A stretch of DNA of 53,033 bases from positions 1 through 53,033 of the forward strand of contig JABFYH010000051.1 of the NCBI GenBank assembly GCA_013361335.1. The letters are read 5' to 3'. Positions 21,983 to 26,512 of the stretch are shown here, in pieces. The DNA is from Gemmatimonadaceae bacterium (lineage in GTDB: Bacteria > Gemmatimonadota > Gemmatimonadetes > Gemmatimonadales > Gemmatimonadaceae). The notes under the pieces are model-generated. The model ran no database searches and was not told the origin of the DNA. It worked only from the letters and a program-made list of their open reading frames with translations. The position numbers and the translations under genes are program-made. The first letter of the stretch is position 1. Each line of letters starts with the position of its first letter.

Positions 21983-22648
21983 ATGACGAAGATCCGGGTA
22001 GTGCTCGTGGACGATCACGCCATCGTGCGCACGGGGTTGAAGGCGGTGCTGGCCGCCGCGCCCGAGGTCGAGGTGGTCGGTGAGGCGTCGGGAGGCACGG
22101 AAGCGCTGGCGCTGCTCGAGCGGACCCACGCCGACGTCGTCGTGATGGACATCTCGATGGCCGACGGAGACGGCATCGCGGCCACCCGCGCGCTCACGAA
22201 GGACTGCGCCACCACGCCGCGGGTGCTCGTGCTCACGATGCACGCCGAGGAGGCGTACCTTGAGGCGGTGCTCGATGCGGGCGCGTCCGGCTACCTGATG
22301 AAGAGCACCGCCGACCGCGAGCTGGTGGACGCCGTGCGGACGGTGGCCCGCGGCGAGGTGTTCGTGCACCCGTCGGCGGCGCGGGTGCTCGCTCAGGGTG
22401 CGCGCCGGCGCGAACAGCACGCCTCCGACCGGGCGCGCTTCGAACGGCTCACCGATCGCGAGCGCGCGGTGATGCAGCTCATCGCGCAGGGATACACCGC
22501 GCCCGAGATTGGCGAGCAGCTCACCATCAGCCCGAAAACCGTCGACACGTACAAGCAACGTATCAACGACAAGCTTGGGCTGACCCATCGCGCCGATTAC
22601 GTGACGCTCGCGCTCAAGCTCGGCCTCCTCCAGCCACCGCCCGCGTGA
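21983..22648 (+). CDS. NarL/FixJ-family response regulator
   Basis: A 221-residue two-domain regulator. The receiver has acidic residues at 10-11 (LVDDHA) and phospho-acceptor Asp56 (VVMDISMADG); the LuxR-type helix-turn-helix (about residues 150-215) has LTDRERAVMQLIAQGYTAPEIGEQL and SPKTVDTYKQRI. A GAGGAAA ribosome binding site precedes the ATG. The cognate kinase is the gene before it. The stop TGA overlaps the GTG start of the MerB-family gene (GTGA), so regulator and enzyme are translationally coupled. Confidence 0.92.
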   Translation: MTKIRVVLVDDHAIVRTGLKAVLAAAPEVEVVGEASGGTEALALLERTHADVVVMDISMADGDGIAATRALTKDCATTPRVLVLTMHAEEAYLEAVLDAGASGYLMKSTADRELVDAVRTVARGEVFVHPSAARVLAQGARRREQHASDRARFERLTDRERAVMQLIAQGYTAPEIGEQLTISPKTVDTYKQRINDKLGLTHRADYVTLALKLGLLQPPPA

Positions 22649-23343
22649 ACGGAATCGCAAGCTTCGACGTCGACGTTCGCCTCGCCATCCAGCACACGCT
22701 CATCGCGGGCCGTCCCACGCCGACGGTGGCGAGTGTCGCCGCCGAGCTGAAGGCGTCGGAGACCGATGTCGCGGCGGCGTTCGATCGATTGGCGGCAGGG
22801 CACGTGATCGTGCTCGCGCCGGGTACGCACGATCTGCTGATGAGCGCTCCCTTCGCCGGTCGTCCCACGGATTTCGCGGTGACGACGGGCGAACGCACCT
22901 ACGCCGCCAACTGCATCTGGGACGCACTCGGCGTCGCCGTGATGCTCGCCGGCGCTGGCCGACGGGTCGACGCCGACGTGCGGACGACCTGTGCCGACTG
23001 CGGCGCGTCGCTCGGCCTCGCCGTCCGGGACGGGACGGTGCGCGCCGATCCCGCGAGTGCCGTGGCGCACTTCGCCGTGCCGGCAGCGCGCTGGTGGGCG
23101 GACATCGGCTTCACCTGACGCACGATGCGACTCTTCCGGTCGGAAGAGCACGTGCAGCGCTGGTCCGCCACCGCCGGCATCGCCGTCGGGGCGATCTTCC
23201 CGGTCGACTCACTCTGGCGCCTCGCCGAGCTCTGGTTCCATGACCGGCTCTCACCGGGCTGGCGGCGGCGCACCCCGGACGAGGCGCAGGCGATCTTCTC
23301 GACGGCGGGCTTGACCGGCGACTTCTGGCGGCTCGACGGATGA
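22645..23343 (+). CDS. merB: MerB-family (alkylmercury lyase-like) protein, candidate selenoprotein with in-frame UGA at codon 158
   Basis: Read conventionally this is a 157-residue ORF ending at TGA 23116-23118, then in the same frame a 72-residue ORF from an ATG at 23125. Read through, it is one 232-residue protein, close to MerB length (about 210-230). The first part has the MerB winged-helix N-terminus (about residues 8-70), Cys90 and Asp93 (NCIWDALG), matching the catalytic Cys96/Asp99 of characterised MerB, a CADC pair (116, 119), and HFAVPAARWWADIGFT. The second part continues with RLFRSEEHVQRW and ends LTGDFWRL, as full-length homologues I recall do. In those homologues the residue between FT/HT and the RLF segment is Cys, the second catalytic cysteine (Cys159 in MerB), exactly where UGA stands here. 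A SECIS-like hairpin follows. MerB cleaves carbon-mercury bonds; activity on organomercury is not proven for this branch. Alternatives: nonsense mutation or sequencing error. Confidence 0.72.
23119..23155 (+). promoter_or_regulatory. SECIS-like hairpin downstream of the in-frame UGA
   Basis: CTCTTCC (23131-23137) pairs perfectly with GGAAGAG (23142-23148) across the 4-nt loop GGTC (23138-23141). Below it, GCAC (23120-23123) can pair with GTGC (23152-23155). The stem starts 12 nt, and the loop 19 nt, after the TGA at 23116-23118. Bacterial SECIS elements have a short stem about 11 nt after UGA and a loop with a G in its first two positions, GGUC in the E. coli fdhF element. Both criteria are met. 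Part of the pairing is also dictated by the encoded residues LFRSEE, so coincidence is not excluded. Confidence 0.7.
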
Positions 23344-23394
23344 CGCTCGGCTTCGTGCGCGGCGAGTAGAGGGTACGCCGGACGGGCGCGACGG

Positions 23395-23607
23395 CTACAG
23401 ATCCGCGCAGCTCTTCACGATCGCGCTGCAGCTCCGGCAGAGCAGCTTGCAGTTCCGCCACCACAGGTCGGTCGAGCCGCACCAGTCGCAGCTCTCGACC
23501 TCCGCGTCGGCCGCCGGGATGGGAGCGCGCGGCGCGTCCGACGCTTGCGGCGGCGGCGCCACACGCTCGGACCCAGGCTGGGACGGCTCGGCAGGGGGAC
23601 GTTCCAT
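23395..23607 (-). CDS. small zinc-ribbon protein
   Basis: A 70-residue protein. The first 37 residues are Pro/Ala-rich and probably disordered. The C-terminal 30 hold five cysteines in a CDWCG ... CKLLCRSC pattern that would bind one zinc, plus one Cys near the end. The ATG at 23607 begins a compact product; longer in-frame starts run into the region coding for ppc on the other strand. Function unknown. It is divergent from ppc and convergent with the MerB-family gene. Confidence 0.55.
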   Translation of the reverse strand: MERPPAEPSQPGSERVAPPPQASDAPRAPIPAADAEVESCDWCGSTDLWWRNCKLLCRSCSAIVKSCADL

Positions 23608-23668
23608 TCGGGCGATGTCGCCGACGATGAGGGTTGCCGGACGGCGCGTCCCGAGGGAAGTTCGGGGA

Positions 23669-26512
23669 ATGTCCGCCCCGTCACGTCGTTCGACCCTGTC
23701 AGACAACGCCCACGTCACCGGAACCGCTGCGCCTCCCCTGCCGGAGCCGAGCGTCCGGCGGGAGGACATCCCCCTGCATGACGACGTGCGATGGCTCGCC
23801 GCCGCCCTCGGCCGCGTGATCCGGCAGCTGCACGGCGACGAGGCCTTCGAGGCGGTGGAGAGCCTTCGCGCCGCCTCGCGCTCACGCCGCCACGGGGAGC
23901 CGAACGCCCTCGGGCTCGAGGCACTCCTCGCGCAGGTCGAGCAGCTGCCGCTCGAGCTCTGCGCCGTCACGGCGCGCGCATTCACCCTCTTTTTCCTCCT
24001 CATCAACACGGCGGAGCAGGTGCACCGCGTCCGCCGCACCCGCGCCTACCGCTCCACCGAATCGCAGGATCCCCAGCCCGCCTCGGCGCGATGGGCCATG
24101 CGTCGCCTGCGCGCCGCGAAACACAGCGCGACCGAGGTGGCCGCCGCCATCGCACGGCTCGACGTCCGGCCGGTGCTCACCGCGCACCCGACGGAGTCGA
24201 CGCGGCGAACGCTGCTGGCGCTCCAGGCCCGCGTCGCCGATCTCCTCCTCGCGCGCGAGCAGGCGACCCTCACCGAACGGCGCGCCATCGAGGAGCAGCT
24301 CGACGGCGAGGTCGAGCTGCTCTGGACGACCGCCGAAGTGCGCCAGGACCGCCCGACGGTGAAGGACGAGGTGAGCACCGTGCTCTGGTACCTGGAGACG
24401 CGGCTCATCGACGCCAGCGCCGCGGCACGCGAGGCGCTTGTTCGCGCTTTCGAGGACGAGTTTTCCGGTGCGCCCCCGCTGGTCACCGGCGCGACGCCGA
24501 TTCGTCTCGGCAACTGGGTCGGCGGCGATCGTGACGGCAATCCGTTCGTCACTCCCGACGTCACCGTCGCCACCGCGCGGCGCGCCTGCCACGCGATCCT
24601 CGGCCGCTACCGCGAGGCCGTCAATGCGCTCGTGGAGCGCCTGTCGCTCTCCGCCCACCTCGCGCCGCCGACGGAGGCGCTCGTGCACTCGCTCGAGGAG
24701 GATCGTGCGCTGCTCCCCGCGGTGTGGGAGGCAAATCGCCAGCGCAACGCCGACGAACCGGTGCGCCTCAAGCTCACCTACATCGCCGCGCGGCTCGAGG
24801 CCACTCGACGACTCGTCGCGTCGCGCGACGCCGGCCGGCCCGGCCGCGAGCCCGCCGCGTATCGCGACGCGGCGACGCTCGAGGGTGATCTCGTCCTCGT
24901 GCGCGACTGTCTCCTCCGTGCCGGCGCCGTCCACGCCTGCCGCGCGACGATCGATCCGCTGCTCGCCACCGTGCGCTCGCACGGGCTGCACGGGTATCTG
25001 CTCGACATCCGCGACCACTCCGACGTGCATCGCGCGGCCCTCGACGACCTCACCGCTCGCGTCGGCGCGCCCAGATTGACCGGGGATGCTCTGCGGGCCG
25101 AGCTGTCCGGCCGGCGTCCGCTCGTGGGCGCGCAGGTACCGCTCGCCGCCGACACCCAGAAGGTGCTCGACACCTTCGGCGCCGTGCGCACGATCCAGCA
25201 GGAGCTCGGCGAGGCCGCCGCGAGCACCTACATCGTCTCCATGACGCGGGACGGCGACGACCTCCTGCGCGTGCTGCTGTTCGCCCGCGAGACGGGGCTC
25301 GCCGATCTCGCCGCGGAACCGCCGACGTCGCGCCTCGACGTCGTCCCGCTCTTCGAGACGCTGGACGATCTGGATCGGGCGCCGGCGGTGATGCGCGCTC
25401 TGCTCGCGGATCCGGTGTACGCCCGCCAGCTCGCGGCGCGCGGCAACCGCCAGGAGGTGATGATCGGCTACTCGGATTCCGGGAAGGACGCCGGCATCCT
25501 GGCCGCGTCGTGGGCGCTGTATCGCGGCCAGGAGGCGCTGGCGGAGCTGTTCCGCGAGCACGGCGTCGCGCTCCGGCTCTTCCACGGACGCGGCGGCAGC
25601 GTGGGACGCGGCGGGGGCTCGCCGGTGTATCGGGCCCTGGCCGCGCTGCCACCCGGCACGGTGGCGGGCCAGCTGCGGATCACCGAGCAGGGTGAGATCG
25701 TTTCCCAGCAGTTCGGCCTCCTCCCGATCGCGGAACGCACGATGGAGGTGACGCTCGCCGGCGTGCTGCTCCAGGAGTTCACCGATTGGCGCGCCGACGT
25801 CTCGCCCGCGGAGGTGGAAGACTTCCGCGCCCGCATGACGCGGCTCGCCGAGCGCTCGCTGGGCGTGTACCGCGAGCTCGTGCACGAGGGTGACGCGCTG
25901 TTCACGCTGTTTCGCGTCGCGACACCGATCGCCGAGCTGGCAGACGCGCGCTTCGGGTCGCGTCCTGCGTATCGGCCGGGGGCGGCGCCGGGCATCGAGG
26001 GCATCCGCGCGATCCCATGGGGCTTCGGCTGGACGCAGATCCGCCTCATGCTCACCGGCTGGCTCGGGGCCGGCACCGCGCTCGCCGCTGAGATCTCCAC
26101 CCCCGATGGCCTCGCGGCGCTGCGGCGCATGGCGACCGTCTGGCCCTTCTTCGACGATCTGTTGGGCAAGATCGAGATGGTGTGTGCCAAGACGGACCTC
26201 GCGGTCGCGCGCCTCTACGTCGAGCAGCTCGGCGGCGACGTCGCGCTCCTTGGAAGGCTCGAGGACGAGTTCCGGCATACCGTCGACGCGGTGCTGCGGA
26301 TCCGCGACCGGGCGCATCTCGCCGAGGACGTGCCCGTGCTCCAGTCGGCGATCGGGCTGCGCAACCCGTACGTCGATCCGCTCTCGCTGCTGCAGGTGGC
26401 GCTGCTCAAGCGCAAGCGGGCGAGCACGTCGACCGAAGAAGAGGATCGGATCGAGGAGGTGCTGGCCACGACGTTGAGCGGTATCGCGCAGGGGCTGAGG
26501 AACACCGGATGA
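23669..26512 (+). CDS. ppc: phosphoenolpyruvate carboxylase
   Basis: Carboxylates phosphoenolpyruvate with bicarbonate to oxaloacetate, replenishing the TCA cycle. The protein is 947 residues from the ATG at 23669 (GGGGA just upstream); in-frame starts further back would add a non-conserved stretch. Signatures: TAHPTESTRRT (catalytic His), VGGDRDGNP, GYSDSGKDAG, FHGRGGSVGRGGG (mobile loop, catalytic Arg), and the canonical C-terminal end RNTG. An N-terminal extension of about 50 residues precedes the conserved part. Its stop overlaps the next gene by 4 nt. Confidence 0.96.
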   Translation: MSAPSRRSTLSDNAHVTGTAAPPLPEPSVRREDIPLHDDVRWLAAALGRVIRQLHGDEAFEAVESLRAASRSRRHGEPNALGLEALLAQVEQLPLELCAVTARAFTLFFLLINTAEQVHRVRRTRAYRSTESQDPQPASARWAMRRLRAAKHSATEVAAAIARLDVRPVLTAHPTESTRRTLLALQARVADLLLAREQATLTERRAIEEQLDGEVELLWTTAEVRQDRPTVKDEVSTVLWYLETRLIDASAAAREALVRAFEDEFSGAPPLVTGATPIRLGNWVGGDRDGNPFVTPDVTVATARRACHAILGRYREAVNALVERLSLSAHLAPPTEALVHSLEEDRALLPAVWEANRQRNADEPVRLKLTYIAARLEATRRLVASRDAGRPGREPAAYRDAATLEGDLVLVRDCLLRAGAVHACRATIDPLLATVRSHGLHGYLLDIRDHSDVHRAALDDLTARVGAPRLTGDALRAELSGRRPLVGAQVPLAADTQKVLDTFGAVRTIQQELGEAAASTYIVSMTRDGDDLLRVLLFARETGLADLAAEPPTSRLDVVPLFETLDDLDRAPAVMRALLADPVYARQLAARGNRQEVMIGYSDSGKDAGILAASWALYRGQEALAELFREHGVALRLFHGRGGSVGRGGGSPVYRALAALPPGTVAGQLRITEQGEIVSQQFGLLPIAERTMEVTLAGVLLQEFTDWRADVSPAEVEDFRARMTRLAERSLGVYRELVHEGDALFTLFRVATPIAELADARFGSRPAYRPGAAPGIEGIRAIPWGFGWTQIRLMLTGWLGAGTALAAEISTPDGLAALRRMATVWPFFDDLLGKIEMVCAKTDLAVARLYVEQLGGDVALLGRLEDEFRHTVDAVLRIRDRAHLAEDVPVLQSAIGLRNPYVDPLSLLQVALLKRKRASTSTEEEDRIEEVLATTLSGIAQGLRNTG

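Follow-up and report, generated by a model that had tools for sequence, protein, structure and literature searches.

A MerB-family gene with a conserved in-frame UGA codon, likely read as selenocysteine, in bacteria from about ten phyla

A gene of the MerB family, predicted to encode a selenoprotein, is located at positions 22645–23343 (+ strand) of the window, i.e. the whole stretch of 53,033 nucleotides from a Gemmatimonadaceae contig that was analysed. Its frame is interrupted by a UGA codon at the position of a catalytic cysteine, and the best explanation for this arrangement, which we regard as very likely, is that the UGA is translated as selenocysteine (Sec). The gene starts with GTG and comprises 232 codons followed by a TGA stop. 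The GTG at 22645 opens an ORF of 157 amino acids (22645–23118, +) that is terminated by TGA 23116–23118 (codon 158), after which the same frame remains open for 74 codons (23119–23340, +) up to TGA 23341–23343. The initial annotation had described an ORF ending at TGA with a frame that continues beyond it, as is confirmed here, and had proposed that the two parts make up one full-length MerB-family protein. This second statement is borne out by the Pfam MerB profile PF03243: the read-through product scores 92.9 bits (cut-off 27) and covers profile positions 1–125 of 126, versus 53.2 bits for the first piece and 23.9 bits for the second one taken separately. With NF009710, the NCBIfam equivalog model for MerB, the window protein reaches 32.4 bits, below the cut-off of 193. 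As the UGA at the catalytic position is likely read as Sec, the predicted product has 232 residues rather than 157, and the 157-residue ORF is likely only an apparent truncation.

The conservation of codon 158 was examined in two sets of homologues. Within the phylum, 69 of 395 genomes carry a homologue. They gave 74 rows, from which three short rows and one row from an already represented locus were omitted; among the 70 loci fetched, L090 (no tblastn hit) and L083 and L086 (both ending short of codon 158) were dropped, leaving 67. The codon-158 column is TGA in 52 of these 67 loci and TGC or TGT in the other 15, one of the latter (L091, 35 bits) being probably spurious and omitted from the tree and from the tally of residues given below. 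One genome, G051, has two copies, a UGA form and a distant Cys relative of MerB (L038 and L087, respectively). A genome-wide scan including one genome per species (84,980 species) yielded 370 relatives, and the best 80 were kept. Despite the poor tblastn score of a stop codon, TGA occupies the codon-158 column in all of these best 80. According to the titles of their records, the 80 loci belong to Actinomycetota, Acidobacteriota, Chloroflexota, Thermomicrobiales, Calditrichota, Planctomycetota, Marinimicrobia, Eremiobacterota, KSB1, a deltaproteobacterium and Gemmatimonadota, about ten phyla altogether; individual names might be wrong, as most of these titles are those of metagenome bins. Some genomes are present in both sets, so that the 132 UGA-type loci include some genomes twice and correspond to 118 distinct sequences over the 42 nt used for the hairpin analysis below. 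In these alignments, the UGA-type gene occurs in more than a hundred genomes.

An internal stop seen in a single genome could as well result from a nonsense mutation in a dying gene or from a sequencing error in an intact Cys gene. One locus of the collection (L080, from genome G075) fits such a scenario: another in-frame TGA precedes the conserved UGA, one base of the hairpin described below is altered, and this copy may be decayed or mis-sequenced. For the family as a whole, this explanation is refuted and we give it a very low probability. At this column, all 132 UGA-type loci have TGA as the internal stop and none has TAA or TAG, whereas these loci terminate with 76 TGA, 31 TAG and 23 TAA (two reach contig ends). 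Beyond the internal TGA, conserved residues and a covarying hairpin are found, and the frame remains open for 65–100 codons in 130 of the 132 loci versus 16% of 264 readings in the two other frames. The relatives carry either TGA or a Cys codon at this site and no other stop, and the non-UGA homologues have Cys in the column, as the initial annotation had expected.

Database homologues have a different appearance. Among the 120 listed out of 650, 118 stop at residue 157 and the other two are full length with Cys158. These truncated entries, together with an ORF of 72 codons that starts at ATG 23125, could be taken to indicate two products, i.e. a working protein of 157 residues and a downstream frame that is either restarted at this ATG or is a regulated extension. 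We hold this alternative to be improbable. The codon in question (codon 161) encodes Met in only 15 of 52 genes of the phylum, the others having Ile (26) or Tyr (11); the UGA interrupts the MerB domain at one of its catalytic positions; and the homologues with a Cys codon form a single protein. Under the preferred reading of the UGA as Sec, the database copies end immediately before this codon, and an enzyme that is widespread and predicted to degrade organometals has probably escaped notice in this way.

A putative hairpin of the SECIS type lies just 3' of the UGA (stem 23131–23137 with 23142–23148, loop GGTC at 23138–23141, + strand). Since matches of an Rfam scan of positions 22500–23500 were all below their gathering scores and did not include any SECIS, the hairpin was tested through the alignment, with covariation, frozen codons, loop counts and folding as evidence. 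Its loop begins 19 nt after the UGA, and this distance is the same in all 118 distinct UGA sequences, which align without gaps. The loop is GGTC (GGUC in the RNA) in 112 of them, the innermost pair being absent in the other six. Over the 118 sequences, 91% of the pair cells do pair, compared with 86% in shuffled alignments. Changes on both sides were observed for four pairs (one of 500 shuffles was as high) and in 47 cells versus 16.3 expected from shuffles (none of 500 as high), these counts being uncorrected for kinship. Every covariation measure decreases when the stem partner is shifted. In the phylum alone (48 sequences), 27 cells have changed on both sides versus 11.6 in shuffles, while the number of pairs with such changes, two, is not above that of shuffles. 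In one sequence (L138), a U-A pair replaces C-G in the stem together with the replacement of Glu by Lys. Three codons are frozen among their synonyms: Arg165 is CGG in 52 of 52 cases (30% elsewhere in these genes), Ser166 is TCG in 50 of 50 (36% elsewhere) and Phe164 is TTC in 51 of 51 (84% elsewhere). The folding energy of single sequences is only modestly unusual (z of -1.2, -1.7 and -2.2). Within the phylum, the hairpin core is present in 49 of 52 UGA genes versus none of the 15 Cys genes. The SECIS of E. coli fdhF, which encodes formate dehydrogenase H, likewise has a GGUC apical loop, located 18 nt after the UGA instead of 19 nt, but it differs by the sequence of its stem and by the gene family to which it belongs.

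The window genome (3.75 Mb in 230 contigs, 84% complete) encodes the machinery needed for Sec, for which the initial annotation had proposed a search: tRNA-Sec (selC, 74.1 bits for a cut-off of 47), selA (537 bits), selB (310 bits, seen over 312 codons before its locus ends) and selD (365 bits) were all found. On contig C98 of this genome (L018 1501–2610), selD itself contains an in-frame TGA (CAGUAAKLGPGDL), which we take to be its usual Sec site, and tRNA-Sec follows about 90 bases behind. A strict search across the phylum detected tRNA-Sec in 279 of 395 genomes. Among genomes with the UGA form, 50 of 52 have it, and the other two (G123 and G343) have selA at more than 520 bits. The Cys-only genomes number 13, without counting G275 (the source of L091) and G051, where a UGA copy is present as well; four have tRNA-Sec, six have selA and seven have neither, six of these seven belonging to one genus. 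The UGA form and Sec genes are associated (Fisher p of 1e-6 to 2.5e-6, uncorrected for kinship). Outside the phylum, 50 genomes were picked from the 80 scanned loci, leaving aside Gemmatimonadota and some others; by the same strict search, tRNA-Sec was found in 39 of these 50 and not in 11, for which the draft state of the assemblies may or may not be the cause.

A further alternative is that a suppressor tRNA or a changed code assigns a residue other than Sec to UGA. No point supporting this was found, and it appears extremely improbable to us. TGA terminates both the MerB-family gene and the response regulator gene that precedes it, in agreement with the earlier statement that the genetic code is unchanged. 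Furthermore, the genome has the full Sec gene set, the UGA form accompanies Sec genes and the hairpin is of the Sec type. The Cys found in the column of other homologues, the sel genes, the TGA or Cys codons of relatives and the conserved hairpin behind the UGA thus all support the candidate selenoprotein put forward by the initial annotation. From these sequence data, we infer that Sec is almost certainly inserted at codon 158. In the corresponding model, SelB loaded with Sec-tRNA would recognise this conserved hairpin, with its loop beginning 19 nt downstream of the UGA.

The other residues expected of a MerB-type active site are located in the part that precedes the UGA. In MerB, Cys96 and Cys159 hold the metal and Asp99 protonates the leaving group. 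Codons 90–93 of the window gene (22912–22923, +) encode Cys-Ile-Trp-Asp, and a profile alignment with the MerB chains of the PDB places Cys90, Asp93 and codon 158 on what we take to be Cys96, Asp99 and Cys159 in MerB numbering. This agrees with the equivalences initially proposed for the first cysteine and the aspartate, and for codon 158 as the second catalytic cysteine. Both Cys90 and Asp93 are found in 131 of 132 UGA rows, the remaining row being a fragment with a gap. This conservation is partly by construction for the 80 scanned loci, as the scan pattern demanded Cys90 and either Asp or Cys at position 93; the pattern did not involve codon 158, and the 52 loci from the phylum were not selected on these two residues. 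An AlphaFold2 model built from 44 sequences has a mean pLDDT of 96 and a pTM of 0.92. Its structural matches in the PDB at E<=0.001 number 11, all of them MerB or MerB2 (target TM-scores of 0.56–0.77), and a Foldseek search against viral models gave no match at this threshold. The modelled protein is therefore predicted to have a MerB fold. It resembles MerB (1s6l, 3f0o) and MerB2 (5c17) by this fold and by the positions of the three residues, but has a predicted Sec in place of Cys159, a longer C-terminal part and no surrounding mer operon; identity in the best structural matches is 19–22%, and the score falls below the NCBIfam MerB cut-off.

The Cys homologues are of two kinds. Among 16 Cys rows, ten have Cys-x-x-Cys, five have Cys-x-x-Asp and one has a gap. 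The ten rows with Cys-x-x-Cys (L064, L069, L071, L073–L076, L078, L079 and L085), in contrast to the Cys-x-x-Asp of MerB and the Sec form, all lack the hairpin core, and six of these rows belong to genomes with neither tRNA-Sec nor selA. A tree obtained from 81 hand-thinned rows by a quick method, with SH-aLRT support only, requires three changes for the Sec/Cys label. With a support of 96, the two full-length database proteins with Cys adjoin two Sec rows; the Cys-x-x-Cys rows fall within a branch that holds Sec rows (support 95). The simplest reading of this tree is a single gain of Sec followed by two reversions to Cys. In the same tree, the window gene adjoins a copy from Actinomycetota (support 88) and is separated from L034 and L049, the copies present in its own genus, which suggests that it has moved between phyla.

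The idea of a Sec-containing MerB is not new as such, since a MerB-like selenoprotein, SaoL, is already included in reviews. A MerB-like selenoprotein appears as a table row in PMC9312934. PMC13188914 names SaoL (NF040728, motif CU) as a MerB-like organometallic lyase selenoprotein, describes a SAO operon with six selenoprotein genes, and cites Haft and Gwadz 2023 and Haft and Tolstoy 2025; it also reports that the authors of SaoL place this protein in an organometallic system. SaoL and the proteins described here are alike in being members of the MerB family with Sec, which is predicted in the present case. They were set apart using NCBIfam scores and the table of that review. The window protein scores 25.5 bits with NF040728, whose cut-off is 140, and the best of 44 members of set A1 has an E value of 2.7e-18, i.e. 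about 67 bits by scaling, which is also below this cut-off. The residue before U is T in 124, N in five and A in three of the 132 sequences and is never C, in contrast to the CU motif that the review table gives for SaoL. In addition, the SaoL model has a length of 159, compared with 232 residues here, and clustering of neighbours revealed no SAO-type operon common to the loci. On these sequence comparisons, we judge the T-U (rarely N-U or A-U) family to be a variant distinct from SaoL, i.e. a widespread predicted Sec-MerB. No description of this family was found in the literature searched, although the supplementary sets of 2008 and 2016 may hold members: PMC2398784 does not mention MerB in the main text, and PMC12013277 and PMC5029168 contain no mention of MerB, mercury, Gemmatimonadota or lyase.

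The genes around these homologues gave no lead as to function. In the window, the neighbours encode a histidine kinase, a response regulator and a PEP carboxylase, and no mer gene is adjacent. Between the GTG start and the stop codon of the response regulator gene there is an overlap of 4 nt (22645–22648), suggesting that translation is coupled here to that of the two-component system. Directly behind the gene, an ORF on the opposite strand (23395–24039, -) has a C-terminal part rich in cysteine pairs (CDWCGSTDLWWRNCKLLCRSC); as listed, it overlaps the PEP carboxylase ORF. Clustering of the mechanically called neighbour ORFs of the 132 loci, 29 of which (L023–L051) have flanks of at most about 1.5 kb, revealed no family common to most loci, and the clusters are mostly local to a lineage, the biggest one including 11 loci. 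In 11 loci (L039–L044, L046, L052, L055, L061 and L063), the gene is preceded on the same strand by a member of one neighbour family, peptidase-like from reading of its sequence. A cluster of 10 loci, labelled ABC-transporter-like from sequence reading too, recurs in different phyla, at varied positions and in both orientations.

Elsewhere in the window genome, contig C90 carries merA (522.6 bits for a cut-off of 454). This gene, whose product has an N-terminal heavy-metal domain, is grouped with a frame encoding a MerT domain and a MerR-family gene (L172, 1498–4100), away from the MerB-family gene. A second PF03243 protein was sought in this genome and none was found. Across the phylum, MerA above the cut-off was found in six of 52 genomes with the UGA form versus 24 of 343 others, a difference that is not significant (p of 0.26, with four candidates scored per genome).

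A Sec protein with a MerB fold could act on another substrate, such as an organotin, organolead or organoarsenic compound, or have a redox or metal-binding role. The lack of adjacent mer genes, of a significant link with MerA and of a common neighbourhood is consistent with this alternative, as is the placing of the related SaoL in an organometallic system by its authors, according to PMC13188914. We give this possibility serious weight, at somewhat under an even chance. In favour of MerB chemistry, Cys, Asp and Sec equivalents of the full set of three catalytic residues are found in 131 of 132 rows; moreover, merA, merT and merR are present in the window genome, where no other MerB was found. 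We slightly favour organomercury as the natural substrate of the predicted Sec enzyme. Its putative mechanism can be drawn by analogy with MerB. Cys90 and Sec158 would act as ligands of the metal in an organomercurial or another organometal and Asp93 would protonate the leaving carbon group; a selenolate would be expected to bind mercury more tightly than a thiolate and to be more reactive at neutral pH. The Hg(II) released could then pass to the MerA encoded on the other contig of this genome.

On a broader scale, these genes might encode horizontally spread selenoenzymes of many phyla that detoxify organomercury or another organometal in environmental bacteria without a mer operon and that have been missed because gene callers cut them at the UGA, with at least two reversions to Cys accompanied by loss of the SECIS, one of which also involved the replacement of the catalytic Asp by Cys. 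We consider this full scenario to be evenly balanced between true and false. If it is true, surveys of MerB that rely on full-length models miss a large set of selenium-dependent organomercury or organometal lyases, and the breakdown of such compounds would be tied to selenium supply. The family would then offer, at a catalytic site that binds metal, a natural experiment on Sec versus Cys, with Cys/Asp/Sec enzymes, reverted Cys/Asp/Cys enzymes and a Cys/Cys/Cys clade, and an example of Sec that would serve at the metal-ligand site of a lyase instead of in its usual redox role.
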